Source: Candidatus Cloacimonadota bacterium (GTDB taxonomy: Bacteria; Cloacimonadota; Cloacimonadia; Cloacimonadales; Cloacimonadaceae). Taken from it: 64,000 nt of DNA. A program made the translations under genes and the position numbers. Positions 6-54,283 of this stretch are shown piece by piece (the stretch's first letter is position 1; every line of letters begins with the position of its first letter). The notes beneath the pieces are model-generated. The model ran no database searches, was not told the origin of the DNA, and saw nothing but the letters and a program-made list of their open reading frames with translations. The stretch lies in NCBI GenBank assembly GCA_020532085.1, contig JAJBAV010000010.1, positions 1-64,000 of the forward strand. Direction: 5' to 3'.

Positions 6-1349
6 ATGCGTAGAGAACTGATAGAACTCTTCGGGAAGAAGCCCTCCGTGGATCTGGACCTGGACAAAGTCCCGCTGCTGCTGCGTGACTACATCAAACT
101 AACCTCCAAAAGCACCGACTGCCATCCTGGCCTGTTGATCAGCGCCTGGCTGCCCCACATCGCCGTCAACCTCGGCAACCGGGTCTTCATGCTCTCCAAC
201 TCCAACCGCATCTATCCGAACATCTGGAGCTGCCTGCTTGGACCTTCCTCCATTTCGCGGAAAACCACGGCCATCACCTACGCCGGATACACCATCAGAC
301 CGCACGAGGAGCTCTACGAGGACATGCCCCTGGACGTGTACGAGGCGGAAACGCAGCTGCTCTCCAACGTCACCTACTCCAAGATGCTCTCAATGCTGTC
401 CCTGAACGGCACCCGGCTCTTCATCCACCACGAGCTATCCGCCTGGCTGGCCGAAATGAACAAACACTTCAATTCCGGCTATAAACAGACAATCACGGAG
501 CTCTACGACGGCGTTTCGAAGACCGTGAGCAACCAAACCAAGACCGAGAGGATCCGCAAACCCGCCCTGAGCATCTCCACCGCCACCACCGAAGCCTGGA
601 TGTACCGCAACATCCGCGAAAACTCCGACCAGCTCGGCGGCTTCCTCCAGCGCTTCATCTACTTCGTGGTGCGGGACATCAACCTCGAGGACATCGACCT
701 CGATACCAAGGAAGGCGAGGACCTGGAGGAACGTTTGGCCATTTACGAAGGCATGTTCAAACACTTCCGCGCCATCCCCGGCTCCCACAGGATCAGAATG
801 TCCGATGAGGCCGTCGCTTTGCGGGATTCGCTCTACAAGGCCCAGTACAAGACCTGGTTCGCCAAAAACAACGACGACCTTATGAGCTACTTCACCCGCA
901 TCTATGACGGCTATTTCTACAAGTTCTGCGCCATCTTCAGCCTGGTGGAAATCTGGGAGGAGCTAGGCGAGGCCATCCAGCGTGGCTGTTGCGAACGCTT
1001 CTTCGAAGGCCTCCGCGTCTCCGAGGAAACCGCCGCCCAATGCCTCTACCTCTGTGATTTCTACTTCGCCAACACCATCCCCTTCCTGGAGATCGTGAGT
1101 GAACAGGATAAGCTGTCCGGAGAACGGAAACTGGTCGAACTGCTGGTGAACAAGTACAACGGGAAAGTAAGCCATACAGCCCTGATGAACATGTCGCACA
1201 TGAAGAAGCGGGAGTTCAAAGAGTGCATAGAGTCATTAATTGAGAGAGAAGCCATAACCGTCGATACATTCCAGGCCAGAAACTACCATAATACCAAGTA
1301 CTACATCCTGGCCGAGGAGATCCTCAAGTCATTTCAGTCAACCGGCTGA
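6..1349 (+). CDS. DUF3987-family P-loop protein, possibly 5'-incomplete
   Basis: A 447-aa protein resembling DUF3987 (YfjI-like) proteins, found in mobile elements and often next to primase or helicase functions. A P-loop-like stretch GPSSISRKTT lies at residues 79-88, and a hydrophobic strand ending in an acidic residue (RLFIHHELSAWL, 137-148) could serve as Walker B. The C-terminal ~80 residues look like a small winged-helix or coiled region. The first ATG is only 5 bases from the window edge and the frame is open upstream, so the true start may lie outside. A rho-independent terminator follows at 1372. A broken homologue of residues ~320-383 lies at 52404-52592. The family assignment is by recognition; the biochemical role is unknown. 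Confidence 0.7.
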   Translation: MRRELIELFGKKPSVDLDLDKVPLLLRDYIKLTSKSTDCHPGLLISAWLPHIAVNLGNRVFMLSNSNRIYPNIWSCLLGPSSISRKTTAITYAGYTIRPHEELYEDMPLDVYEAETQLLSNVTYSKMLSMLSLNGTRLFIHHELSAWLAEMNKHFNSGYKQTITELYDGVSKTVSNQTKTERIRKPALSISTATTEAWMYRNIRENSDQLGGFLQRFIYFVVRDINLEDIDLDTKEGEDLEERLAIYEGMFKHFRAIPGSHRIRMSDEAVALRDSLYKAQYKTWFAKNNDDLMSYFTRIYDGYFYKFCAIFSLVEIWEELGEAIQRGCCERFFEGLRVSEETAAQCLYLCDFYFANTIPFLEIVSEQDKLSGERKLVELLVNKYNGKVSHTALMNMSHMKKREFKECIESLIEREAITVDTFQARNYHNTKYYILAEEILKSFQSTG

Positions 1350-1371
1350 AATCCATGAACATACCAGCATG

Positions 1372-1398
1372 AGGGCGGTTTCGGCCGCCCTTCTTTTT
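1372..1398 (+). terminator. Rho-independent terminator after the DUF3987 gene
   Basis: A 6-bp GC stem (gggcgg/ccgccc, loop tttcgg) at 1373-1390 is followed by ttcttttt. It sits 22 bases after the stop codon at 1349. Confidence 0.7.
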
Positions 1399-1778
1399 GG
1401 AGGCAAAAAAGCAGTGTGGTTTTAGTTCCCGCTTTTTTGCTTCTCGTTGAATGACAGCAGGTTAGGAGGCAAAAAAGCAAAAATCACCTCTCTTATATAT
1501 ATCCAGTTTCAGGCCCCCCCCCGTGCTGAAATCCCCGCATAGAGGTGTTGATGCTAATGTAGTTTTATATATTATATAATATATTACTATTATATATATA
1601 TTATATCTATATACATCTTATACATCATCTTAGCATATCCTTCTATCTGATCCAGCTCTAAAACTTCTCTATATGTATAAGAGACCCCTTTTTTGCTTTT
1701 TTGCCTCTTAACTCATTGTTATACAATCATAAGCAAACAAGCAAGCTACTAAACAGCTTTGCTTTTTTGCCTCTCGTT
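1398..1778. repeat. AT-rich core flanked by inverted 13-bp iterons (origin-like block)
   Basis: The 13-mer GAGGCAAAAAAGC occurs directly at 1400-1412 and 1466-1478, and inverted at 1695-1707 and 1761-1773. A degenerate inverted copy lies at 1431-1446. Between them, about 1491-1680 is extremely AT-rich (runs of tatata). No gene is visible. Inverted iterons around an easily melted tract are typical of replication origins or partition and recombination sites, but no function is shown here. A block with the same plan and different iterons lies at 52821-53160. Confidence 0.7.
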
Positions 1779-1786
1779 TCTTCTCA

Positions 1787-2262
1787 AAAGCCCCGCCAGG
1801 GGCGATATAACGATAGCGAGGGTGTGAAGTGACCGGGGTCCCCGCGGAGGAGCGAAGCGATGCCGTGGGGCGGGAACGCAACCCCTCGAACCAGTACCAA
1901 AACCAATATCTGAGCCCCTTGTGGGCGACATACCCCAAATCACCTGTTCTGTCGCCTCTGCGAGGCTTGGTGTTTGTATGGCCTCATACGAGGGGCTACG
2001 CTTCGCTCCGCGCCCTCGCTATCGTTCTGCCGCCTCTGCGAGGCTTGGTGTTTGTATGGCCTCGTACGAGGGGCTACGCTTCGCTCCGTGCCCTCGCTAT
2101 CGTTCTGCCGCCTCTGCGAGGCTTGTCTTTGCCAACCACCCGCCCCAAACTGTCATTCCGGGATGGGGGCTTCAGCCCCCGGGGCCCAGTCGGGGTCCTC
2201 GCCGGACAACTTGTTGGCCGGTGGGGTGATTCGAATCCAGGCCTTGCGGGAATAGCCCACAG
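1787..2262. repeat. GC-rich dispersed repeat cluster
   Basis: This noncoding DNA opens with agccccgccaggggcgata, close to the units at 53198-53409. It then carries the recurrent motif ctcgctatcgttctgccgcc, a 43-bp unit (2198-2241) repeated inverted at 13722-13764, and a gcgggaatagccca segment that recurs near 53815. Open frames here look like repeat by-products, with proline- and arginine-rich translations and no start signals. Confidence 0.7.
1951..2127. repeat. 78-bp tandem repeat, about 2.2 copies
   Basis: The segment starting gcctctgcgaggcttg recurs at 1954, 2032 and 2110, an exact 78-bp period (26 codons) with very few differences between the full units. Because the period is a multiple of three it creates spurious open frames. 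A diverged single unit lies near 53725-53757. Confidence 0.85.
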
Positions 2263-2446
2263 AGGGTGTCGATCCAGACTGCGTCTGCATCGACACCGCC
2301 TTTGTCTGACAGCAGTTTGTATTTGCCATCTGGATTCCGGGACCCCGGCGTTAAAACGCCACCCCGGAATGACAGTCCGGTTTGAACCCGTACAACCAAT
2401 CAGCGTGAACCCTTTTGTGTAAATTCGTGGAATTCGTGGATAAACT

Positions 2447-2770
2447 CCTCTGTCTCTCTGTGCCTCTGTTTTTATTGATCCGCGTAAATCATAATAATCC
2501 GCGTCATCTGCGTTCTATTCTTCTTTTTCCGTGACGAATCCCTCTTTTGTTACCCACTATATATAGGGGCTCTCTGTGCCGCTTCCCATCCACATCCCAT
2601 TCACTTCCCGCTGACTTCCCAACGCTTCAATGGGAACTGAACGGGAGGCGGGCAAGAGGTTGACACGCAAGCTGTAAGATGGAAAAAACAAACAGAAAAA
2701 ACAGAGGCACAGAGACACAGAGAAATGATCCGCGTAAATCATAATGATCCGCGTCATCAGCGTTCTATTC
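2447..2770. repeat. 44-bp direct repeats and inverted cacagagacacagag motifs upstream of the 148-aa gene
   Basis: A 44-bp segment beginning gatccgcgtaaatcataa is present at 2477-2520 and 2727-2770 with about two differences, 250 bp apart. Just outside or inside these lie ctctgtgcctctgttttt (about 2456-2473) and its inverted form (about 2694-2724). A TTGACA box lies at about 2660. The region leads into the ribosome-binding site of the gene at 2821. Confidence 0.75.
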
Positions 2771-2820
2771 AATTCGTGCGAATTCGTGCCATTCGTGGAC
2801 AAATACAAAGGAGGAAAAAC

Positions 2821-3267
2821 ATGAAAGTCTACTTCAAAAACATGCTGCAAGCCTATCACGGCGCCTGCGACGGACTGATCTACTACTACAATCCCCGGCT
2901 CAACCGCCTGCTGGTGAGGCCGCACGTGAAACCCCGGCTGAACGAGAACAACCGCCGCTTCGCCGCCATCGCCCGCAACCTGAAGCGGATCGCGCCTTCC
3001 CAGGCCTTCATCACGGACATGACGGTTTACACCGACATCCACAGCCGCCACGCCAGGGAAGGAGACCGTATCTACAGCACCTGGTACAGCGCCTTCCTCA
3101 AAATGATGTACGCGCTGCAGGCCTCGGATCCCGGCATCGACCTGGAATTTCTGGAGCGGGTCCACATCGAAGCCAACGACCTCCCCTGCCGCAGCGTCAA
3201 ACGCGCCGTGTCAGCGGGATTGCTTGAGCCTGTGCCAGGCTATGAGCTGCTCGACAAGCTGATGTGA
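2821..3267 (+). CDS. Conserved small protein of unknown function (148 aa)
   Basis: The ATG at 2821 is preceded by aaaggaggaaaaac, a near-ideal ribosome-binding site, so the longer open frame from 2725 is not used. The protein is basic and soluble, with no signal peptide or membrane segment. It is rich in Tyr, Arg and Asn near the N terminus (YYYNPRLNRLL) and I recognise no family. It is real rather than chance: a frameshifted remnant at 54140-54217 keeps both the ribosome-binding site and the start of the coding sequence, again about 1.5 kb beyond a DUF3987 fragment. A perfect 12-bp stem-loop follows the stop. A link to the DUF3987 gene is inferred from this co-occurrence only. Confidence 0.7.
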   Translation: MKVYFKNMLQAYHGACDGLIYYYNPRLNRLLVRPHVKPRLNENNRRFAAIARNLKRIAPSQAFITDMTVYTDIHSRHAREGDRIYSTWYSAFLKMMYALQASDPGIDLEFLERVHIEANDLPCRSVKRAVSAGLLEPVPGYELLDKLM

Positions 3268-3279
3268 GGAGGATAAAGA

Positions 3280-3310
3280 AATTAGCCGGAGTTATCTACT
3301 CCGGCTAATT
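3280..3310. terminator. Stem-loop between convergent genes
   Basis: A perfect 12-bp stem (aattagccggag/ctccggctaatt, loop ttatcta) lies between the 148-aa gene and the convergent protease gene. The T-tract is weak on both sides, so it may end transcription from either direction. Confidence 0.6.
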
Positions 3311-3375
3311 CTATATTTAGTCTGAATCCATCAATAAGTCATCAGGCTACGATTGACAGATAGGTAGCTGATATT

Positions 3376-4959
3376 CTAATACTCTGCCTCTATGATAAAT
3401 ACAGCTGATTTGAAATTCTCCACCATTGAAGATAAGTTCGTTGACGCCTGGCTTTTTTTCTCCATTACAATGTTTTCGTCCAACAATTCAACCAGATTTT
3501 TCAAGTATGATATCTTGACTGCGTATGAGACATTTTCTGCGTTCTCAATTTTTGCGTTGACGATCCCGATTACATTCCCACGAGAATTGAACAAAGGCCC
3601 CCCGCTGTTACCAGGTTGGGCGGGGGCGCTGATTTGATAGCTTGACACATCGCCCTGATATCCAGTTACTGAGCTTATGATCCCATTTGTAACCTTGATC
3701 TCATTCCCCATTACTTTTGTTAAGGGGTATCCCATGCAAAACACAGATTCACCCGTTTTGTTTGTTGTATCTTCAAATCCATATGGTATTCTCATTGTAT
3801 TCATAGTACCGGCCAATCCTGGAACTTTCAAAATACAAATATCGTTTCTCTCATCTGATAACTCAATAGTCGCAGATAACCGAGACTGACTACCATCGTT
3901 AGAAATCACATAAACATTCTTGGAATTTTTCACAACGTGCAGATTGGTGGCCACATAACCGCCACCGCTGATTAAGAATCCAGACCCCACGGATGTTTCA
4001 TAAACAGAAGAAGAGCCCATTTCTTCTGAGTTTGGATAGTCTTTAATATAAGTTGACGAGGTCATTTTTTTATGTTCTTCTTGCATACTGAGCTCAAGAA
4101 GCCCTTCCGGTGTTATAAATGCCGTAGAGGGCAATTCCAGTTTTGTATCAGTATAATAGACTATCGAATATACATTGGAGTTGGCTGTTTTTCTCAATTT
4201 AACACGTATTTCTCCTTTATACCAAACAAAGTTCTCATCCAAGACTATAGCGTAATAATCGTATTTATCATCTTCAACAGATATTATAGCTATTCTGGAT
4301 CTGTCAAATAGGGCTTCTCCGCCCATCGCCAGAGGAGACCAAATCCCTTCTATCTGATTTAATCTTAGTAGATTGTTATCCAAATAATCTTTAACTTGAT
4401 TTATATCCTTACTGTAAAACCTATATTTATCTGATTCAATTTTATCTATATAATTCCTTAGATATCCGATCATTAGATTTTCATCATATCCTTGATAGTA
4501 TCGTTTTAAGATTGATGTTGCTTGATTGTACATATCTGCCTCTCCATATACGTTGGCAGACACTTTAAACCTCATCACCTCACTAAAATCAGTAGTGCCT
4601 AATTGAACTGCTTCCAAGGTTATAAACAAGTTATAAAACTCATCTCCACCGTAGCGGTTGAGATAATAGTTATACGAGCATGTTAGTGTGGCTAGTTTAT
4701 CGTTCATCTCCATTTTTCCAAATTCATCAAGATCAATGGGAATTATGCCCGCGTTTCTGAAAGCATTCTCAACTTCCGAATTTGGACTAATAAACACCTT
4801 GTTATTGTTGTTGAAAACAACTACATATTTGAACCTATTAAGATTCTTGTATGTCATCGGTGGTTTTTCTACATACCCCTGCGATACTGCACATCCAGAT
4901 AAGAACATAGTCATCAGTACTGTAATGATTATTCCTAGGTAAATCACAATACTTTTCAT
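3376..4959 (-). CDS. Trypsin-like serine protease lipoprotein
   Basis: A 527-aa protein. The ATG at 4959 is chosen because AAGGAG lies 8 bases upstream and because it begins a lipoprotein signal (MKSIVIYLGIIITV...FLSGC). The C-terminal third is an S1 trypsin-like domain: His in TNLHVV (~339), Asp in NDICIL (~372) and Ser in GNSGGPL (~450), resembling HtrA/S1C enzymes without a visible PDZ domain. The N-terminal ~300 residues are not recognised. It lies 77 bp downstream of hsdR on the same strand and has low G+C like the inserted genes in that operon. It is likely anchored on the periplasmic side or in the outer membrane. A part in defence is speculative; a general envelope protease is the alternative. 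Confidence 0.75.
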   Translation of the reverse strand: MKSIVIYLGIIITVLMTMFLSGCAVSQGYVEKPPMTYKNLNRFKYVVVFNNNNKVFISPNSEVENAFRNAGIIPIDLDEFGKMEMNDKLATLTCSYNYYLNRYGGDEFYNLFITLEAVQLGTTDFSEVMRFKVSANVYGEADMYNQATSILKRYYQGYDENLMIGYLRNYIDKIESDKYRFYSKDINQVKDYLDNNLLRLNQIEGIWSPLAMGGEALFDRSRIAIISVEDDKYDYYAIVLDENFVWYKGEIRVKLRKTANSNVYSIVYYTDTKLELPSTAFITPEGLLELSMQEEHKKMTSSTYIKDYPNSEEMGSSSVYETSVGSGFLISGGGYVATNLHVVKNSKNVYVISNDGSQSRLSATIELSDERNDICILKVPGLAGTMNTMRIPYGFEDTTNKTGESVFCMGYPLTKVMGNEIKVTNGIISSVTGYQGDVSSYQISAPAQPGNSGGPLFNSRGNVIGIVNAKIENAENVSYAVKISYLKNLVELLDENIVMEKKSQASTNLSSMVENFKSAVFIIEAEY

Positions 4960-5036
4960 TGATATCACTCCTTGCGAAAGACAGTTTATGTATTGCTTAA
5001 ACAAGCATGTCGATCCTTAAACAAGCCTTCCGCAAA

Positions 5037-8000
5037 TCACGCCGCGAAATCTCCGCAGATAAGTTCGGCTTGTTCGATCACCAGGTCGGTGGCTTCCTCG
5101 GTTTTGTCCGGGGGATAGCCGTATTTCTTGAGGATGCGTTTCACCATCACGCGCATCTTGGCGCGGGCCTGTTCCCGCACCGCCCAGTCGATGGTGACGT
5201 TCCGGCGCACGCTGTCGATCAGCTCCAGGGCGATCTTTTTCAGGGTCTCGTCGCCGAGTTCCAGCACGGCGCTGTCGTTGTTGCCCAGGGCGTCGTAGAA
5301 GGCCAGTTCATCGTCGTTCATCTTCAGTTTTTCGCCCCGTTTTTCCGCATCCTTTACCTCTTTGGCGATCTTGATCAGTTCGGCAATGATGGCCGCGGCC
5401 TCGAGGGTGCGGTTCTGGTATTTGCGGATGGTTTCGGCCAGCATTTCGGCAAAGGAGCGGGAGAGAACGGCGTTTTTGCGGAAGCGGGCCTTGATCTCGT
5501 CGTTGAGAAGTTTTTTCAGCAGTTCCACGGCCAGGTTCTTGTGGGGCATGCGGCGCACCTCCTCCAAAAACTCGTCGGAAAGGATGGAGACGTCCGGTTT
5601 TTCCAGTCCGGCTGCGGCGAAAATATCCACCACGCGGTCGCTGGAAATGGCTTTGGAGACCAACTGGGCGATGGCGCTTTCCATTCCCAGGGGATCATGG
5701 TCCGCCCCGGAGCCGGAGGATTTGATGACGGCGGCCTTGACGGACTGGAAGAAGCCGATCTCCTCGCGAATTTCCAGGGCGCTGGGATGGGGGACGCTGA
5801 GGGCGAAGGCCTTGGTGAGTTTGGCCACCGTTTCCACCAGCCTGGTTTTACCGTTTTCCTGGGCCAGAATGAATTCCTGAGCCGGAGCGATCAGATCCAG
5901 CTTGTCCTTGGGTGTTCCCCGCAGCCAGGCGCTCCAGTCGAAACCGTGAAACAGCCGCTGGCATTGTTCGTATTGTTCCATCAGAACGGCCAGGGCTTCG
6001 TTCTGGTCGAGGGTGATGGTCCCTTTGCCCTTGGCCTGGGTGTAGGTGGCCAGGGCCCTCTTCAGTTCTTCCGCCAGGCCCAGATAATCCACCACCAGGC
6101 CGCCGGGTTTGTCCTTGTAAACCCTGTTTACGCGGGCTATGGCCTGCATCAGGCCGTGGCCGTGCATGGGCTTGTCCACATACATCGTGTGCAGGCAGGG
6201 AACGTCAAAGCCGGTGAGCCACATATCCCGCACAATAGCGATCCGGAGAGGATCGGCCGGATCCTTGAACCTCTCGGCGATCTTGTCGCGGCGGTCCTTG
6301 CTGCGGATGTGGCCCTGAAACTCGAGGGGATCGGCCGGATTTCCCGTCATGACAACCTTGATGGCGCCCGCGCGGTCATCCGGTGAATGCCAACCGGGAC
6401 GCAGTTTTGTAAGGGCCTGGTACAGCTCAACGCAGATGCGGCGGCTCATGCAGACGATCATGGCCTTGCCTTCCAGGGTCTCGCTGCGGGTTTCCCAGTG
6501 GGCAACGATATCCGCGGCGATGAGATCTATCCTCTTTTGCGAGCCGACCACCGCTTCCAGGGCGGCCCACTTGCTCTTCAGCTTTTCCTTCTCGTCCGGC
6601 TCCCGGTTTTCGGTGATCTCCTCAAACTCCGGGTCCAGCTTGGGTTTCTCGGCTTCGTCCAGTTCCAGCTTGGCCAACCGGCTTTCATAATAGATCGGCA
6701 CCGTGGCGTTGTCCAGCACCGCCTGTTGAATGTCGTAAACGCTGATGTAATCGCCGAACACGGCCCTGGTGTTGCGGTCGGTGAGTTCCACCGGGGTGCC
6801 GGTGAAAGCGATGAAACTGGCGTTGGGCAGGGCGTCGCGCATGTTTTTGGCGAAGCCGTCGATAAAATCGTACTGGCTGCGGTGGGCCTCATCGGCGATC
6901 ACCACGATGTTGCGCCGCTCGCTGAGCAGAGGGTAATCCACACCCACTTCATCGGGCATGAATTTCTGGATGGTGGTGAAGATCACACCGCCGGAAGCCA
7001 CTTTCAGCAGATTCCGCAGATCGGCGCGGTCATCCGCCTGTTTGGGCGTCTGGCGGATCAGGTCCCGGCAACTGCAAAAGGTGCGGAAGAGCTGATCGTC
7101 CAGGTCGTTGCGGTCCGTTATCACCACAATGGTGGGATTTTCCAAAGCCGGATGTTGAACCAGCCTGCCGGCGTAGAAGGCCATAGTGAGGCTCTTGCCG
7201 CTGCCCTGGGTGTGCCAGACCACGCCGCAGCGCCTGTCCCCCTGCCGGGATATGGCCTGGATGGTCTTGTCCACAGCCGCGTTCACCGCGTGGAACTGGT
7301 GGTAGCCGGCCAGCTTCTTGATGGTGCCGGAGCGGTTTTCCTCAAATACGATGAAATGGCGGATGATGCTAATCAGCCTGGATGGCTCGAAGATCCCCCG
7401 AAGCAGCACTTCCATTTTGGAGGTCTCGCTGTTCTCGATCTCCTCGCCGGAGATGGTGCGCCAGGGCATCATCCGCTCCCGGCCGGAACTGAGCGTTCCC
7501 ACCCGGGCGTCCAGGCCGTCGGTGATCACCAGCAGGGAATTGTAGGCAAAGAGCGAGGGGATCTGGCTGATGTAGGTCTGGATCTGATTGTAGGCGCTCC
7601 AGATAGTGGTGTTCGGGTCGGAAGGATTCTTCAGTTCCAGCACCGCGAGGGGCAGGCCGTTCAGGAAGAGCACGATGTCCGGGCGGCGGATGTGCTTGTC
7701 CTCGATCACCGTCATCTGGCTCACGGCCAGAAAGTCGTTGTTCTCCGGGAAAGCGAAATCCACCAGCCTGGCCGAGCTGTGAACCGTCTTGCCTTCCAGC
7801 CGGTAGGAGACTGGAACCCCCTCCACCAACAGCTTGTGAAAAGCCCGGTTCCTGTCCAGCAGCGAGGGCTGTTTGAGCCGCAAAACCTGATGCGCGGCCT
7901 CCGCCAGACAATCCACGGGTAACGTGGGATTGAAGCGGGCCAGCATGGCCTGGAGGGTCTCCAGACGGAGCAACTCAGGAATGTCGCTATCTTCCAGGAG

Positions 8001-8078
8001 ATGGGGATAGGACTTGATCTGATAGCCCAGATCTTCCAGGAGATGCAGGGCTATGGATTCAACGGATTTTTCGAGCAT
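5037..8078 (-). CDS. hsdR: Type I restriction enzyme, endonuclease/translocase subunit HsdR
   Basis: About 1013 aa, normal for HsdR. Counting from the in-frame TTG at 8090, the N-terminal nuclease shows PD (137-138) and ELK (152-154). The SF2 motor shows Walker A HTQGSGKS (293-300), DEAH (400-403) and TGTP (430-433), and a long helical C-terminal domain binds the rest of the complex. I place the start at the ATG (8078); the TTG four codons earlier is possible. It cleaves unmodified DNA at a distance after ATP-driven translocation, as part of the R-M-S complex. It is separated from hsdM-hsdS by two unrelated AT-rich genes. Confidence 0.93.
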
Positions 8079-8175
8079 TTTTCTATCCAATTATCACTTA
8101 ATCACAAACTGTAATCTGAACGACAAAGCACTAGTATCTCATAAACAAGTTTTTGGTGTTGGTTATATTTTGACA

Positions 8176-8994
8176 TCATTGTGTCATGTGTTTGTAATTC
8201 TTTTCAACATAATCTTCAGGGATAGGTTCGTTTATTGACCTGATATGGTAAACTATTCTATGACCGTACAAAGATGATTTGCAGCTTCTACTACATAACC
8301 TGCACATAAAATATACTGTCACTATTAAAGATAACGCGAAACCAATGTAAACGGCTAAAGGGAAGTTTAGCATCAACGGCTTCTTAATAATAGATACGAG
8401 TAAGAACCAGATGAATGTCCAAAAATTGATAATCCCCCATAACGTCATATTGAATAGACTTACAGTCAAATTGATTTTGGAAACCGAGGGAGGTTTTGTT
8501 TTACTTGTTATCATTTTCCTCAATTCCTTTTCAGAGTTTGTGCTTTTTAGTGTTTTTTTATTGACTTCGTCTATTGAAAACATGTGTAGCTTATAAGATG
8601 GACCCATTATCGAGTTTTCAAGGTAATCAATCTGATATTCCCAATTTTCTTGCCAGTATTTGCTTCCTTTGTTTACGAGGAACCATGCATATGAAAGAAA
8701 TAGACCCACACAAGAAACAAAGTATAAGACAGCAGTCTGCAATTCTTCCATTGGTTGTTCAATGTCCATTATTTTCATATCTAATGCTATTTTACCAAAA
8801 AGCGTCCATATCAAACTAATAAATACCCAAAAGTAGGCCGCCCTGCGCCAATATAGGTTTATTTCCAACTCACGGTTATCTTTAGCGTTTTTAAGAGCTT
8901 CTGGTGCTTTTTCTTTTGAAAACCCGATATCAATCATATAAGGTAAAGGATTCTCAAGTGGTACATCCCTTGATTCGCATATGTAATCTCGCAT
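8176..8994 (-). CDS. Four-helix membrane protein within the type I RM operon
   Basis: A 272-aa protein. The ATG at 8994 is preceded by TTGGAG 5 bases upstream and lies 23 bp after the DUF4209 gene. Four hydrophobic segments are visible in two pairs: ISLIWTLFGKIAL and AVLYFVSCVGLFLSYAWF, then IINFWTFIWFLLVSII and VYIGFALSLIVTVYFMC. A charged cytoplasmic-looking stretch of ~60 residues separates the pairs, and the C-terminal tail contains a CRLCSRSC cluster. No family is recognised. It is markedly AT-rich compared with hsdR. Its position between the DUF4209 gene and hsdR suggests it works with the DUF4209 protein, perhaps as a membrane effector or anchor; this is inference from context. Confidence 0.65.
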   Translation of the reverse strand: MRDYICESRDVPLENPLPYMIDIGFSKEKAPEALKNAKDNRELEINLYWRRAAYFWVFISLIWTLFGKIALDMKIMDIEQPMEELQTAVLYFVSCVGLFLSYAWFLVNKGSKYWQENWEYQIDYLENSIMGPSYKLHMFSIDEVNKKTLKSTNSEKELRKMITSKTKPPSVSKINLTVSLFNMTLWGIINFWTFIWFLLVSIIKKPLMLNFPLAVYIGFALSLIVTVYFMCRLCSRSCKSSLYGHRIVYHIRSINEPIPEDYVEKNYKHMTQ

Positions 8995-9017
8995 AACTAC
9001 TCCAATATAGAATACTA

Positions 9018-10835
9018 CTAATCTTGATTTAACGTCTGTTGTTGTCTGATATTTGACAATACAAGTCGCAGGCAAAAATACCATGTATACACTGAAGAGT
9101 AAGTAAATCCAACATAAGAATCCACCAGACCATGAGCTATTTCATTCCGCATGTTGAATCCTACAGGATCCGTAAACACAGCTTTCGTCTCGAATAATAG
9201 GTCATTATCGAGCACTTGACTTATGTCCTTGTCCTCTAACAACTTGCTTAGGCTTTTTTCTGTCTCAATACCATTCTCATCGGTGAATGTCGTTTTAATA
9301 CCATTCCTCTTCATCGAAATCCTTACATAGTTTTCAACTTGTGGTGTTAATAAGTGCACCGCAGTAAGAAAATCACTTTCGAATCCACAGTATATTCCTT
9401 TGGCCCACAATAACATTCTGTCTTTGGGCACAGCTATGGATAATGAGCACAGGTCTATCATAGTAGACAAAGAGATAAGATGTTCGGCATTCAGTATCTT
9501 CAAGGCCGGTAAAATCATGACACTTACAGAGAAAGAAATGTTGTGAGCAAAGTCTTCTAACATCTGAACCCATAAAGCCTTCTTGTTTTGTGGGCCGTCA
9601 GGATCGTTTAACGAGATGCCAGATGTTTTGCATACTACTCTTCCATCCCTTGAATAGTGTGTTTTAGAAACCAGGGCTGATAATATGCTATCTTTCATTC
9701 TTTCTATAGCTTTTTCACTGTATTCTTGCTCTTTCTGTTGTTCAATAAGGGAAACAAAGGCATAGATTGCATCTGGTAAATTATGTCCTTTAACATGACC
9801 TTCAACAGCGGTTAGTATTTCAGTCACGTTCATAGTCGGTGAGGTTATAAGATTCATTTCTGTTGTTGCTTGTTTGTTTGCCCCCTCAATCATTTCATAT
9901 AGCTCTTTTATTCTATCTTCGCTTACATATTGAATTCGAATTTTTCTTGGGATTTTTCGGTATGCTTCGATAGCTAAATGGTAATATTCTGCAGCAAACA
10001 TACTACTCGTTGCAGAAGTCCCCTGTTCAACATAAGACTCGGCAATTCTACATTTTATTTCAAACAATCTTGGGTCATTATAGTTTTTTTTCGCAATTAA
10101 ATCAAAGGCTCGATCCAACAGAGTACGCTCTGAATCTAGTTTGGTTGTATGTGATGATTCTAGAAGTATTTCAATAACTATATCTGTACTGCTTCCAAGA
10201 CCATTCCTTATCAATAAATCAGACACGATGTCGACAATTCTATGATTCTTAACATTATTTCGAAGTGTCTCAATTAGATAGTCGTGAATTTTGGTAACTC
10301 GATCTCTCGTTAAATCTCTATGGATATGACATAAATATATCGCACGTTTGTATGGATTCTCACATTCAAAATAATGTTCGTTTTCTTCAAATCTATAATT
10401 CAAATAAGCATCTATAGCTATTAATGCATAATCTGGATTTCTAGGATGCACAATGTACCAACATATATCTGCTATTCTAGACCTCAATCTATAATCGCTG
10501 ATTTTCGATACTATCTCTTGGAAGAAAGTTATATCCGTTAATAAAAAATCCTCTGGAAGTGCAGACCTCCTGCCCCCCATCGAACAAAAAGGTTTGTAAG
10601 GTTCATTAGGGCTCTCCGGTACTAACATCATTGAACTTGCATCTGCTAAAAGCCATAGGACCTTACCTTCCTTTAACTTTCCATTATCAATACATTCTTT
10701 GGCAGCATTGGAGAAGTGCTCATGAAAGGAACTAATGTCTTTCTCGTGTAGTCTTTCAATGATCGCGTCCACTCCAGCATTGATATAATCTTCTAAATGA
10801 ACATCTAGCTTCTCATCATATCTGTATTGTATCAT
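9018..10835 (-). CDS. DUF4209-domain protein with RNxxxHG motif
   Basis: A 605-aa soluble protein. The C-terminal part carries RNEIAHG at residues 563-569, matching the RNxxxHG signature of DUF4209 and also the R-x4-6-H catalytic pattern of HEPN ribonucleases. The upstream ~500 residues are helical and repeat-like, without transmembrane segments. The ATG at 10835 follows the hsdS stop by 8 bp, with GGAA as a weak ribosome-binding site, so it is translationally coupled to hsdS. The gene is strongly AT-rich. A toxin or abortive-infection role guarding the restriction system is plausible from the motif and location, but has not been shown. Confidence 0.75.
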   Translation of the reverse strand: MIQYRYDEKLDVHLEDYINAGVDAIIERLHEKDISSFHEHFSNAAKECIDNGKLKEGKVLWLLADASSMMLVPESPNEPYKPFCSMGGRRSALPEDFLLTDITFFQEIVSKISDYRLRSRIADICWYIVHPRNPDYALIAIDAYLNYRFEENEHYFECENPYKRAIYLCHIHRDLTRDRVTKIHDYLIETLRNNVKNHRIVDIVSDLLIRNGLGSSTDIVIEILLESSHTTKLDSERTLLDRAFDLIAKKNYNDPRLFEIKCRIAESYVEQGTSATSSMFAAEYYHLAIEAYRKIPRKIRIQYVSEDRIKELYEMIEGANKQATTEMNLITSPTMNVTEILTAVEGHVKGHNLPDAIYAFVSLIEQQKEQEYSEKAIERMKDSILSALVSKTHYSRDGRVVCKTSGISLNDPDGPQNKKALWVQMLEDFAHNISFSVSVMILPALKILNAEHLISLSTMIDLCSLSIAVPKDRMLLWAKGIYCGFESDFLTAVHLLTPQVENYVRISMKRNGIKTTFTDENGIETEKSLSKLLEDKDISQVLDNDLLFETKAVFTDPVGFNMRNEIAHGLVDSYVGFTYSSVYTWYFCLRLVLSNIRQQQTLNQD

Positions 10836-10843
10836 GGGCTTCC

Positions 10844-12043
10844 TCAGGAGTTATGGAAAAAATGCTCGAATAATAGCGTTCGATTGTTTGATAATATCGA
10901 CGATTGAGAAACGTTGGTATTCATATAGCATAGAAATGATTTCATTAAAGCGCCATATTTCAACATAGTATTTTTATCAGGAACTACTATATCCATACAC
11001 CCCATAATATTGTCCCATTTAGCGTATGGTATTGTGCTCCCTTCAGAATGATTAGTAGCATGCTCTATTGTTTTTTTCTGGTTTATAAGCATTAATGCAT
11101 ATCCAACTTCTTGAGGCCGGGCTCGTAGTACAAATGCAGTTGTTCTGGTTGTACCCTCAAATGGTGCTATACAAACTTTATGAAAATACGGCCGCATAGC
11201 TCCAAATAAAATGTCCCCTTGATCGAATATTATCAAACTGCTTTGAGCTTTTACACCTGGTAAGGAGTTCCATAAACACAACGTTTTAGGAGATATGCAT
11301 TCTATGGGGACGTATGGCATTGATTCCTTTCTCTCAGATACACTTACTCTGTTTACAACGTTGTCCACTAATTCTTTTAACTGCCCTAACCTCCATCCTT
11401 TTGGAACCAGTCCCAGTTCGGAATCAACCATTTCCCCGCCGGAGGTTTTGTATGGTTTGCCTTCCTCATTGGGGAATTCGAAATCTATGAACCAGTGTTT
11501 GAAAAGGGCCTGGGCAATCTCCTCCAGGGTTTTGTTCATCCTGCGGTTGAGTTCGATCTTGTCATCCAGGGTTCCCAGGACCTGGGCAATTTCTTTTTGG
11601 GTTTCTATGGGAGGAATATTGATTTCGATTTCCCCAATTACATCAAACGTTATTTGTGGAAATGTGCCTGAACGGCTTTCTGCTTGAGCCTGTAAATAAT
11701 CAATTGTGGTTTGAGATTTAAGGTATTGATATATATACCGTGTATCATATAATTGCCGGACCCTGAGAACCATTAGCTTTGTAGATACAACATATTTGCT
11801 ACATTCATCATTCACATAGGCGAATCTTTTGTTTTTTGGCCTTATTTCACTGTACAAGATATCATTTTTACGTATTCTTTTCTTAGCTTGACCGGGAAGA
11901 TTTTTGGCAGGCATACTTACTCTATTAATAACATAGCCGTCGTAGATATCTGATGTATTCAAAAAAATTGCTATCTCATCAGGACTAGTAAATTTGTAAG
12001 TGTCCGACACAGAATCAATTACTTCTCGTAGTTTTACTAACAT
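10844..12043 (-). CDS. hsdS: Type I restriction-modification specificity subunit HsdS
   Basis: A 399-aa protein with the usual two target-recognition halves. The first conserved helical spacer (PPIETQKEIAQVLGTLDDKI, ~140-160) ends in the ELGLVPKGWRLGQL boundary that opens the second recognition domain. A weaker second spacer lies at the C terminus. It sets the DNA sequence methylated and cut by the complex. The ATG at 12043 lies 4 bp from the hsdM stop. The two recognition domains are AT-rich while the central spacer is GC-rich like hsdM, the mosaic expected when recognition domains are swapped. Confidence 0.92.
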   Translation of the reverse strand: MLVKLREVIDSVSDTYKFTSPDEIAIFLNTSDIYDGYVINRVSMPAKNLPGQAKKRIRKNDILYSEIRPKNKRFAYVNDECSKYVVSTKLMVLRVRQLYDTRYIYQYLKSQTTIDYLQAQAESRSGTFPQITFDVIGEIEINIPPIETQKEIAQVLGTLDDKIELNRRMNKTLEEIAQALFKHWFIDFEFPNEEGKPYKTSGGEMVDSELGLVPKGWRLGQLKELVDNVVNRVSVSERKESMPYVPIECISPKTLCLWNSLPGVKAQSSLIIFDQGDILFGAMRPYFHKVCIAPFEGTTRTTAFVLRARPQEVGYALMLINQKKTIEHATNHSEGSTIPYAKWDNIMGCMDIVVPDKNTMLKYGALMKSFLCYMNTNVSQSSILSNNRTLLFEHFFHNS

Positions 12044-12047
12044 GTGT

Positions 12048-13598
12048 TTAGAAGCCCAACTTCTTCAGATTGGCTTTGATCTTTTTTTCCAGCCGGGCGG
12101 ATTCCTCGAACTGGGCATAAAGTTCCTCGGTCAAGCGCCGCATCTTAGCTTCGAAGGGTTCGCCGTCTTCATCATCCCTGAGCGCCATGCCCACATAGCG
12201 GCCGGGGGTGAGCACATGGTTTTGGCTGGCGATCTCCTCCGTGGAGACTGATTTGCAGAATCCGGGGATGTCCTGGTATTCACCCGCGTCTTTGTCTCCC
12301 CGCCAGGCGTGATAGGTCCCGGCGATCCTGTCCAGGTCATCTTCTGTGAGTTCCCGGTGGATCTTGTCTATCATCTGTCCCAGTTCGCGGGCGTCGATGA
12401 AAAGAGACTCTCCCCGGCGGTCCCGGAAGCGGCCGTTGTTTTTGCCGCGGGAGAGGAACCAGAGGCAGGCCGGTATTGAAGTTGAGTAGAACAGGTTCCC
12501 CGGCAGGGCGACCATGCAGTCCACCAGATCATCTTCAATGATGGCCTGGCGGATGGCGCCTTCGCCGGATTGCTGAGAACTCATCGAGCCGTTGGCCAGC
12601 ACGAATCCGGCCAGCCCCTCCGGGGCCAGATGCCAGAGGAAGTGTTGGATCCAAGCGTAGTTGGCATTTCCTTCGGGCGGAATTCCGTATTGCCAGCGGG
12701 GATCCTTGGCCAGTTGGTTTCCGCCCCAGTCCTTCATGTTGAAAGGAGGATTGGCGATCACGAAATCGAACTGGCGGTCCTTATGGAGGTCCTTGAGAAA
12801 GCTGTCCCCGTTTTCCGGACCCAGATCGGCCTCTATTCCCCGGATGGCGAGGTTCATCTTGGCCAGGCGCCAGGTGGTGGGGTTGGATTCCTGTCCATAG
12901 ATGGCAATGTCGCCGATGTGTCCGCCGTGGTCTTCGATGAATCTCTCGCTCTGGACGAACATTCCCCCGGAACCGCAGCAGGGGTCGAAGATCCTCTTAC
13001 CCGGCACCGGGGCCAGCATGGCCACCAGAAGCTGCACCACACAGCGGGGGGTGTAGAATTGGCCGCTCTTTTTCCCTTCGGCGCTGGCGAATTTGCCCAG
13101 AAAGTATTCATAGACCCGGCCCAGGATGTCTTTGGAGCGGTTTTCCTTTTCGCCCAGGCCGATTGTGCCGATCAGGTCCATCAGTTCGCCCAGTTTGGCC
13201 TGATCGAGGTCCTGGCGGGCGTAGTTTCCCGGCAGGATGTTCTTCAGGCTTTTGTTGTCCTTTTCTATGGCGGCCATGGCTTCATCGATCAGTTTGCCGA
13301 TCTCCGGGGTGTGGGCCTTGCCCTGGAGATAGTTCCAGCGGGCGGAGGACGGCACCCAGAAGATGTTGGCGGCGGTGTATTCATCCCGGTCCTCGGGATC
13401 GGCCAGGGGTTCCTTCAGCAGTTGATTGTGGTGTTCTTCGAAGGAATCGGAGATGTATTTAAGGAAGATCAGCCCCAACACCACATGCTTGTATTCAGCC
13501 GCGTCCATGAAGGGAAGCAGCTTGTTGGCGGTCTGCCAGAGAGTCTCTTCAAAGCCCAGATTGGCGCCGCTGGAATTGTTTGCTGCGCGTTTTGCCAT
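12048..13598 (-). CDS. hsdM: Type I restriction-modification N6-adenine methyltransferase HsdM
   Basis: A 516-aa protein; the ATG at 13598 has AGAGG 8 bases upstream, so the in-frame TTG two codons earlier is rejected. An HsdM N-terminal helical domain is followed by SAM-binding motif I ([11 protein letters not shown], ~204-214) and catalytic NPPF (283-286), typical of gamma-class N6-adenine methyltransferases. It is the first gene of the island, with a candidate promoter at 13641-13669. With HsdS it methylates the host; with HsdR it forms the restriction complex. Confidence 0.94.
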
Positions 13599-13640
13599 GT
13601 ACAAACCTCTTTACTTATCGTGTAAAAAAAGACTTATTTC

Positions 13641-52403: not shown

Positions 52404-52592
52404 GAGGCCATCCAGCGTGGCTGCTGCGAACGCTTCTTCGATGACTTCCGCGTATCCGAGGAAACCGCCGCCCAAGCCCTCTACCTCTGCGACTTCTACT
52501 TCAACACCACCATCCCCTTCCTGGAGATCGTGAGCGAACAGGACCGCCTCGCCGGAGAACGCAAACTGGTGGACCTGCTGGTTAGCAAATAC
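52404..52592 (+). pseudogene. Truncated DUF3987 gene fragment
   Basis: About 63 codons that translate closely to residues ~320-383 of the protein at 6-1349 (EAIQRGCCERFF, SEETAAQ, LYLCDFYF, IPFLEIVSEQD). There is no start, P-loop or C terminus. On the 5' side the match stops at about 52404; on the 3' side it stops exactly where an inverted-repeat element begins (52594). Confidence 0.85.
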
Positions 52593-52593
52593 G

Positions 52594-52720
52594 GAACACC
52601 AGTTTCAACTGGTCGGACCGCCGGATTCATCCGGAAATCTTCTGCTGCGTACCAGGCCTGTCAGTCCATCGGCAAAAACCGGATGAATCCGGTGGACCGA
52701 CCGGATAAATCCGGTGTTCC
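52594..52720. repeat. Inverted-repeat element that truncates the DUF3987 fragment
   Basis: Arms of about 41 bp (52594-52634 and 52679-52720) match at about 34 positions, around a 44-base spacer. Motifs are ggattcatccgg and its complement ccggatgaatcc. It replaces the 3' end of the gene fragment. Confidence 0.7.
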
Positions 52721-52820
52721 GGTTCCCACGGAATTCGCTGACTGTCCTCTCCTGACGGCTTCGAGAGTTTGATTGACATATTTACCGCCATCAGTTCGTC
52801 AGATTTCTGTTCCATGAACC

Positions 52821-53160
52821 ATTCTTTCACAACCCTTCACAAATGGCTGTGAATAGTTCTAACCCTTTATAGAAAAGGGTTTGAAGCCATTCTTTCACAA
52901 AATATCGGTACTCCTCTCTCTCCGGGATAGAGTCCTTGTGCATTATGCTAATCTTTATATTATATATTAAACTATGATACATATATTATCTATATCTATA
53001 TATATGACATATGGTTATACATCTGCATCAGGGATTCCTGCATCATTGCTGCGGCGGGAGGGGAGTAGCGAATTTTTGTGAATGGTTAGCCTGTAACGCT
53101 GATCAGTAAAGGATTAGAACTATTCACAACCGTTTGTGAAGGGTTGTGAAGAGTGTGAAT
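52821..53160. repeat. AT-rich core flanked by inverted TTCACAA arms (second origin-like block)
   Basis: Left arm 52821-52902 contains ttcacaacccttcacaaa and gtgaatagttctaa; right arm 53080-53160 is its inverted counterpart (ttagaactattcacaacc, tttgtgaagggttgtgaa). About 40 of 45 bases match in the outer part. Between them 52930-53030 is almost purely A+T. It parallels the 1398-1778 block in plan but not in iteron sequence. Confidence 0.75.
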
Positions 53161-53197
53161 TTGCCCATTGTGATTCTTGATCCCTTCCCTCCCCTAA

Positions 53198-53409
53198 AGC
53201 CCCGCAGGGGCGATACATCTTAGCCCGGGGTGGAAACCCCGGGTCACCAATACAAATGAGGCAGATCAGCCCCGCAGGGGCGACACATCTTAGCCCGGGG
53301 TGGAAACCCCGGGTCAAGGGGACATAAATAGGTTACGAAGCCCCGCAGGGGCGACACACTAACCTAATCTGTTATTTTGCAATCATTTGTGCCGCCCCTC
53401 CGGGGCTTG
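53198..53409. repeat. 70-bp GC-rich tandem repeats
   Basis: Units starting agccccgcaggggcga occur at 53198, 53268 and 53339, with the palindromic companion gcccggggtggaaaccccgg in the first two and an inverted copy at 53391-53409. The unit start also opens the repeat cluster at 1789. The spacing DNA is not unique spacer-like, so this is not CRISPR. Confidence 0.85.
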
Positions 53410-54139
53410 CATTCATCCTATGTCTCCACACCCCAGGGTTCCGCTGCGCTTCACCCTGGGCTAAGTTGTTACGCCCTCTGGGCTCAACCCCTTCCCGCCC
53501 CTCGATCCCCCACCCATGTCCAAGCAACGTCCAAGCCATGCCCGAAACCGGAGATCGGCGGGACGTCAGCAGCGCGTGGGGAGGGCGGACAGAAGCGAGG
53601 GAGGCCAGACAGAGCCCCTTGTGGGCGACAGAATCCCCCGTAAATTATATCGCTCGCGAGGGGCTTATGTTTTCTTTGGGCTACGATCCCGAGGGGCTTG
53701 CCTCGCTGCGCTCGTCCGCATCCTCGCTATCGTTCTGCCGCCTCTGCGAGGCTTGTCATTGCCAACCAACGCCCCGAACCCGCGTCATTCCGGAACGCAG
53801 TGACGGAATCCAGCCCTGGCGGGAATAGCCCAACCCAGACTCAGGCCACCTCGGGGTCCGAAATCATCGGCGTAACGCAAAACAGCATAATCACAACACG
53901 GAGGCACGGAGACACGGAGAAAAGAGGAAAAGGTGGTGGTTGGTCGGCTTAGCCTGGCGAACGGCGAACGCAGAGAGCATGGGCGAAAGGATATTTTGGC
54001 GGTAACATGCTTTGTTGCCGGCGATGCTCGTGACTCACTCGAAGCCAGCCCCCACGCTCCCTCCCTTCCACCCCCTCTTTTTCTCTGAGCCTCTGAGCCT
54101 CTGAGCCTCTGTGTTAAAAAATTCCATGGGAGGAACCAC
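53410..54139. repeat. Noncoding dispersed-repeat tract before the small-gene remnant
   Basis: This tract holds no convincing gene. It contains the ctcgctatcgttctgccgcc block (about 53728-53757), a gtcattccgg motif (~53784), gcgggaatagccca (~53819), and cggaggcacggagacacgg (~53900). These appear in the same order as in 1787-2720. Near 54085-54112 there is a triple gcctctga repeat. Confidence 0.7.
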
Positions 54140-54217
54140 ATGAAAGTCTGCTCAAGAACATGCTCAAAGCCTACCGCGGCGCATGTGACGGATCGACCTA
54201 TTACTACAATCCCCGCG
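54140..54217 (+). pseudogene. Frameshifted remnant of the 148-aa gene
   Basis: It keeps ggaggaaccac-ATGAAAGTC, i.e. the ribosome-binding site and start of the gene at 2821. It has lost bases after codon 3, shifting the frame, and matches again through ATTACTACAATCCCCG before ending. Only about 26 codons remain. Confidence 0.85.
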
Positions 54218-54283
54218 GAACTTCCCGGCCCACCCCGACGCTGGGATGACGGCGTGGGCGCCCCCCCCTTCGTCCCGATTTTG

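Follow-up and report, generated by a model that had tools for sequence, protein, structure and literature searches.

In iteron plasmids and secondary chromosomes, the repeats usually form a direct array that flanks the AT-rich element on one side, and the initiator is of the Rep or DnaA type. In the SaPI and SCCmec elements, the C-terminal domain of the helicase binds repeats that directly follow the gene encoding the helicase (PMC7581432). DUF3987 proteins were predicted to be helicases of mobile elements, and their winged-helix domains might recognise origins (Kazlauskas and colleagues, PMC5862659). In the literature that we searched, there was no mention of DUF3987 together with iterons.

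Here we describe a block of mirrored repeats adjoining a DUF3987 gene in the first 64,000 nt of contig C10 (JAJBAV010000010.1) of the 2.81-Mb Candidatus Cloacimonadota assembly GCA_020532085.1. This stretch is referred to as the window. Judged from sequence comparisons, the block is probably (at odds of roughly three in four) the replication origin of a chromosome-resident primase-helicase replicon, for which the DUF3987 protein would act as the initiator. By analogy, the best reading is that the block and gene belong to a module of a mobile replicon working like the replicons of SaPI and SCCmec.

Architecture of the repeat block

The block begins 50 bp past the stop codon of the DUF3987 gene, beyond a terminator-like hairpin (Table 1). 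It is an imperfect inverted repeat with 103-nt arms, which are 73% complementary and hold all six repeat sites in the order forward, reversed, forward, AT core, reversed, forward, reversed. The inverted-repeat score of the block was 70, compared to a maximum of 21 among 100 shuffles. An earlier note on this DNA had listed four 13-mers, two direct and then two inverted, and a degenerate fifth. The four are exact copies of GAGGCAAAAAAGC, and the fifth is the reversed GAAGCAAAAAAGC, which has one mismatch; the sixth site, which mirrors the fifth in the other arm, had been missed. Exact GAGGCAAAAAAGC recurs only once elsewhere in the genome, as a single copy at C16:35923. Therefore, the presence of four copies within 374 bp is not due to chance, and the scattering of the 13-mer through the genome, for which the earlier note had proposed a count, was not seen.

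The AT-rich core matched our core model R1 with an E-value of 1.5e-8, which has to be read knowing that the same sequence is among the 20 from which R1 was built. The best 90 nt of the core are 84% AT. The description of the region as about 190 bp of nearly pure AT was overstated, since positions 1501–1700 contain 32.5% GC and a C-rich tract at approximately 1514–1522. Iteron-type origins combine multiple initiator-specific repeats near the initiator gene with an AT-rich region. Both are present here, with initiator specificity suggested by the co-variation described below and the AT-rich region being a candidate for unwinding. A structured RNA was rejected, because positions 1000–3400 gave no Rfam match. 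Farther downstream, positions 1946–2125 contain a 78-nt tandem repeat with two full copies, a partial third, and CGCCTCTGCGAGGC hairpins.

Table 1 Positions of the repeat block, the adjoining genes, and the second module in the window
Feature	Position	Strand	Remark
DUF3987 gene for a predicted AAA+ type initiator helicase of 447 aa	6..1349	+	Pfam PF13148
Winged-helix DNA-binding domain (predicted), codons 371–445	1116..1340	+	AlphaFold2 model, pLDDT about 70–84
Hypervariable wing, proposed specificity determinant, codons 419–437	1260..1316	+	Similarity break, partial Mantel
Hairpin and T run, intrinsic-terminator-like, separating gene from block	1371..1397	+	
Whole block, arms 1400–1502 and 1671–1773 around core	1400..1773	.	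Imperfect inverted repeat
Iteron GAGGCAAAAAAGC, outer left	1400..1412	+	Exact match
Reversed iteron GAAGCAAAAAAGC, one mismatch to GAGGCAAAAAAGC	1431..1443	-	49 bp to inner site, 3' end to 3' end
Iteron GAGGCAAAAAAGC, inner left	1466..1478	+	Exact match
AT-rich core, candidate DNA-unwinding element	about 1541..1641	.	Core model R1
Iteron GAGGCAAAAAAGC, inner right	1695..1707	-	Exact match
Degenerate reversed iteron, sixth site	1732..1743	+	Mirrors 1431–1443, 49 bp to inner site
Iteron GAGGCAAAAAAGC, outer right	1761..1773	-	Exact match
148-aa protein gene accompanying module	2821..3267	+	12 matches in genome
Decayed DUF3987 C-terminal fragment, second module	52404..52616	+	Broken by a repeat
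Second origin-like block, TTCACAA-type iterons, core 52929–53026	52822..53165		
Remnant of 148-aa gene, second module	54141..54219	+	

The DUF3987 protein

The adjoining ATPase gene reported in the earlier note encodes a DUF3987 protein, which matched Pfam PF13148 with an E-value of 3.6e-12 and 46.6 bits, above the curated cut-off of 27. Its Walker A motif is degenerate (GPSSISRKTT), and residues G79, S81, R85, K86, E143, and R216 are invariant in the alignment of DUF3987 proteins. The relatives retrieved with the protein in a homologue search were Candidatus Cloacimonadota metagenome-assembled genomes. The profile of eleven DUF3987 sequences found no PDB chain up to an E-value of 10, and homology of the helicase to SaPI Rep or Cch/Cch2 was not detected, as Pfam gave DUF3987 only and the PDB sequence search was empty. 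Because the helicase is without a detectable sequence relative among solved proteins, we say that the module works like a SaPI or SCC replicon and not that it is one.

The helicase domain was poorly modelled by AlphaFold2. Residues 371–445 were predicted to fold in the order helix, strand, helix, helix, and two-stranded wing. The PDB matches of this winged-helix model were mostly winged-helix regulators and DNA-binding proteins, with a probability of 1.0 and an E-value of only about 0.04. The predicted C-terminal DNA-binding domain, together with the position of the block directly downstream of the helicase gene, reproduces the arrangement of SaPI and SCC.

Genes of the module and its surroundings

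Only 5 nt of the contig lie before the DUF3987 gene, and therefore a primase gene such as that upstream of other copies would fall outside the contig. In C20, C13, and G6C3, the DUF3987 gene lies downstream of a gene encoding a BT4734-like primase N-terminus and PriCT_2, and in C27 the primase and DUF3987 are fused in one 903-aa ORF. The N-terminal part of the primase at L058:8380-9489 resembles the NCBIfam CRISPR-associated primase-polymerase type B, with 68 bits, which is below the cut-off. The family of the 148-aa protein (MKVYFKNML...) occurs beside modules across genera, for example, at L094:12081-13001. Family searches assigned the 148-aa protein to no known family, and a function based on its fold was rejected because no known fold matched. 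A family of 172–185-aa proteins recurs upstream of the primase gene (L058:12640-13197, L069:732-1283, L094:11250-11768). Genes for the 148-aa and approximately 185-aa proteins also recur beside modules in the one-contig genome G021.

Many DUF3987 copies adjoin ordinary chromosomal genes. The small contigs with a DUF3987 gene that were checked lacked the terminal overlap of circular ends. A plasmid was rejected, since there were no circular contigs among those checked and no match in the plasmid collection; a known phage or viral relative was rejected after none was found in phage or IMG/VR collections. The 25 families listed for 50 proteins neighbouring the modules included no integrase, as would be expected of a phage-inducible satellite (PICI/PLE/P4), and no recombinase or transposase was consistently linked to the modules among the families listed for neighbouring proteins.

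Positions 3376–13604 of the window, which follow the module, contain defence-type genes. These encode a trypsin-like protease that resembles RT-protease and Avs1b proteases, a DUF7380/DUF4209 protein, and the HsdS and HsdM proteins of a type I restriction system. Defence genes also adjoin other modules (L061:3948-7874, L069:2857-6801, L089:7656-10763, L094:13542-17235) and include an McrBC-like pair, a PD-Lambda-4-like protein, a type IIG/ISP restriction enzyme directly behind a block, and CRISPR Cas6/Cas10. Dispersed repeats flank or interrupt many modules, even within the primase gene.

Block copies share a layout and differ in letters

The DUF3987 protein is multicopy, with 13 matches in the genome of the window and further ones in the genus. 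Only 14 of 125 Cloacimonadota genomes had a Pfam DUF3987 match above the cut-off. Within the genus, 31 DUF3987 copies had a testable downstream core, and downstream of 29 of these the inverted arms beat all 100 shuffles. As a control, 197 regions that follow ORFs of 200 aa or more were taken from the same loci; a core with arms was present in only 11 of them, and all eleven belong by position to the same block family, gene-linked or orphan. Outside the genus, the block was not seen beside the DUF3987 genes of G031, G124, G098, G103, and G044. Beside the G021 copy there is an AT core accompanied by repeats of TAAATTCACA, and inverted arms were not significant there. Short TTCGCA-like repeats just past the gene were noticed, by eye only, in the f9 copies (G044, G098, G103).

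The letters of the repeats differ between copies while the layout of the block stays constant. In both arms, the reversed site is located 49–51 bp from the inner site, measured from 3' end to 3' end, and the forward sites are 55–58, 64–68, and 73–77 bp away from it (about 56, 66, and 76 bp), mirrored in the two arms. This layout is common to blocks with the repeats GAGGCAAAAAAGCA, AAATAAGCA, GGTCTTCGCA, CCTCTTCACA, and CCTATTCACA; GGCAAAAAAGCA is a further one of the differing repeats in the constant layout. The distances of the outer sites form classes separated by approximately one turn of the helix. Nominally, the statistic for this periodicity is strong, but the mirroring of the arms and the kinship of the copies inflate it. 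The retention of the spacing without retention of the sequence points to the assembly of protein on the DNA, and not to descent alone. The earlier note had regarded free variation of the block beside a conserved gene as an argument against an origin. The repeat letters do vary, but the layout does not, and the letter changes track the protein.

The arms of the C19 and C11 blocks differ by two mirrored complementary changes and by no unpaired change in 95 arm positions, which suggests arm-to-arm homogenisation in this pair. The mirrored changes between L173 (C11:47858) and L179 (C19) are TTCGCA to TTCTCA and GGGGG to GGAGG. Concerted evolution between arms was rejected as a general rule, since C38/C29 and C27/C22 differ on one arm only.

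Orphan and decayed copies

The core model search identified approximately 21 core loci in the genome of the window. Of the blocks, a dozen lie next to a DUF3987 gene, either full or broken, and about ten have no such neighbour. Two of these orphans closely match blocks that do adjoin the gene, C1:171289 being a near copy of that in C59 and C11:47858 of that in C19. The duplicated C59 block has its edge within a dispersed repeat and not at the arms. The locus L080 (C1:139260-139964) contains three origin-like cores within about 700 bp and no DUF3987 gene. A second, decayed module is present in the window itself (52404–54219; Table 1).

The block might be a relic, that is, the origin of a once-mobile replicon that has become fixed in the chromosome and is inert today, its structure persisting by descent. 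Such a relic would agree with the replication-origin reading on what the block was, and differ from it on present function. Many copies are truncated, several blocks are orphaned, and the decay of the second module is plainly visible, all of which fit a relic. However, there are intact genes, such as those of C10, C36, C20, and C13, and arms next to full-length DUF3987 genes are less degraded than those next to truncated ones (p 0.012). Furthermore, keeping the layout while the letters change needs selection. We consider it unlikely that the blocks are merely relics.

The wing and the iterons change together

The DUF3987 proteins of C10, C36, and C20 have 14–16 differences in the first 416 residues and then diverge abruptly. 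The nucleotide similarity of the three pairs ends at codons 416–421, in the wing, and that of the pair G6C3/G6C4 from another genome at codon 420. Each of these pairs broken at the wing also differs in its iterons, and C36 and C5 have both wing and iterons in common. Among C10, C36, and C5, the similarity resumes about 50 bp before the start of the 148-aa gene, which suggests that the entire intervening segment was exchanged.

Iteron distance correlated with the distance of the helix-turn-helix (rho 0.42), the wing (0.38), and the preceding helices (0.25) in Mantel tests of 29 copies. With the preceding helices controlled, the partial Mantel correlation between iterons and wing for the 29 copies was 0.295 (p 0.001). 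At the sequence level, the correlation between wing and repeat similarity thus goes beyond the kinship of the preceding helices. The co-variation could be partly linkage, because the wing codons and the iterons adjoin. One wing position is R in 6 of 7 copies whose repeats end in GCA and K in 11 of 12 whose repeats end in ACA, the exceptions being C10 and G10C114. The association has a Fisher p of 0.0017, or 0.026 once relatives are merged; since the repeats were classified by eye, it is a lead and not a code.

We tentatively propose, at slightly less than even odds, that an origin-specificity cassette begins at codon ~420, ends shortly before the 148-aa gene, and comprises the codons of the wing, the terminator, the iterons, and the AT core. 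The cassette would be the evolutionary unit that is swapped between near-identical helicase genes, many replicons with different specificities would be present per genome, and the wing would follow a readable iteron code.

Discussion

The replication-origin reading is based on the anatomy of the block, its fixed layout, its multiplicity, its association with the gene, the co-variation, and the abrupt change at the wing. Based on these properties, a mechanism of initiation can be proposed. The C-terminal winged helix of the DUF3987 protein would bind the iterons, as the co-variation supports. With their mirrored arrangement, the arms may position two helicase assemblies, one to the left and one to the right of the AT core, and the core would melt so that the helicases can then load. 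Homology indicates that the BT4734-like primase encoded upstream probably performs priming. Since the iterons of each copy appear to be matched to its own wing, many related replicons could share a cell without cross-recognition. The idea of the earlier note that the block is origin-like and bound by the DUF3987 protein has become the best-supported reading, given the layout kept beside the copies and the co-variation of the predicted winged helix.

Alternatively, the block could be a centromere-like partition site or a regulatory site, where the winged helix binds the repeats for its own expression, tethering, or segregation, and where no initiation occurs. A winged helix acting on repeats beside its own gene would also fit a parS-like site or an operator, and some of the PDB matches of the model are TubR proteins of plasmid segregation. 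Nevertheless, the repeats are located downstream of a terminator and not at a promoter, each block contains an AT core that a centromere does not need, and the partner ATPase belongs to a family associated with primases, with a primase gene upstream. A partition or regulatory role is improbable. It is very improbable that the arms are the ends of an element or an attachment or resolution site for recombination or transposition. Such a site would explain the ten or so gene-less blocks, including the two near copies, and the switches at the wing, where the stretch from codon 420 to the 148-aa gene was apparently exchanged. However, the neighbour families listed included no recombinase or transposase with a consistent linkage to the modules, the duplicated C59 block ends in a dispersed repeat instead of at its arms, and the inner iterons and core do not look like an element boundary.

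If the blocks are replication origins, about 20 natural candidate origins are present in one genome, about a dozen of them with matched initiators or their remnants. The interest lies mainly in these many matched initiator-origin pairs within a single genome. The constant layout, in which wing and DNA site change together, comes near to a ready-made experiment on evolving initiator-origin recognition, and the same natural set bears on how compatible replicons arise. Through the defence genes beside its modules, the replicon family is connected with defence islands, in a phylum that has received little study.

The SaPI pri-rep-ori, as far as Ubeda 2007 is cited in PMC7581432, has an initiator helicase with a C-terminal origin-binding domain, which is predicted for the present module. 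According to the same citation, SaPI also has, like the present module, iterons directly downstream of the helicase gene, an AEP primase in the module, and residence in the chromosome, and its initiator is thought to bind as two hexamers, to which the two assemblies proposed here would correspond. The SaPI helicases are of the DUF927 or D5/Primase_Cterm types, whereas that of the present module is DUF3987. Unlike in SaPI, the modules described here are from Cloacimonadota, many different ones occur per genome, and an integrase or helper phage was not identified. SCCmec with Cch2/CCPol-MP is likewise a chromosomal island with repeats immediately downstream of the helicase gene (PMC7581432). SCC has an A-family polymerase primase, Ccr recombinases, and only three 5-bp iterons (PMC7581432), whereas the present block has mirrored arms around an AT core, and its primase is a BT4734-like AEP. 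The PrimPol-associated DUF3987 helicases combine, as here, a DUF3987 ATPase with a primase, PriCT-2, and a winged-helix domain; they were predicted at the domain level only, with no origin described for DUF3987 (PMC5862659). Here, in contrast, the primase is BT4734-like, and several copies encode the primase and the helicase in two distinct genes. The combination of repeats and an AT-rich unwinding element, the initiator-specific repeats, and the logic of incompatibility are common to the present block and to iteron plasmids and secondary chromosomes. The present block differs from those of iteron plasmids and secondary chromosomes in its mirrored arms and its self-encoded helicase.
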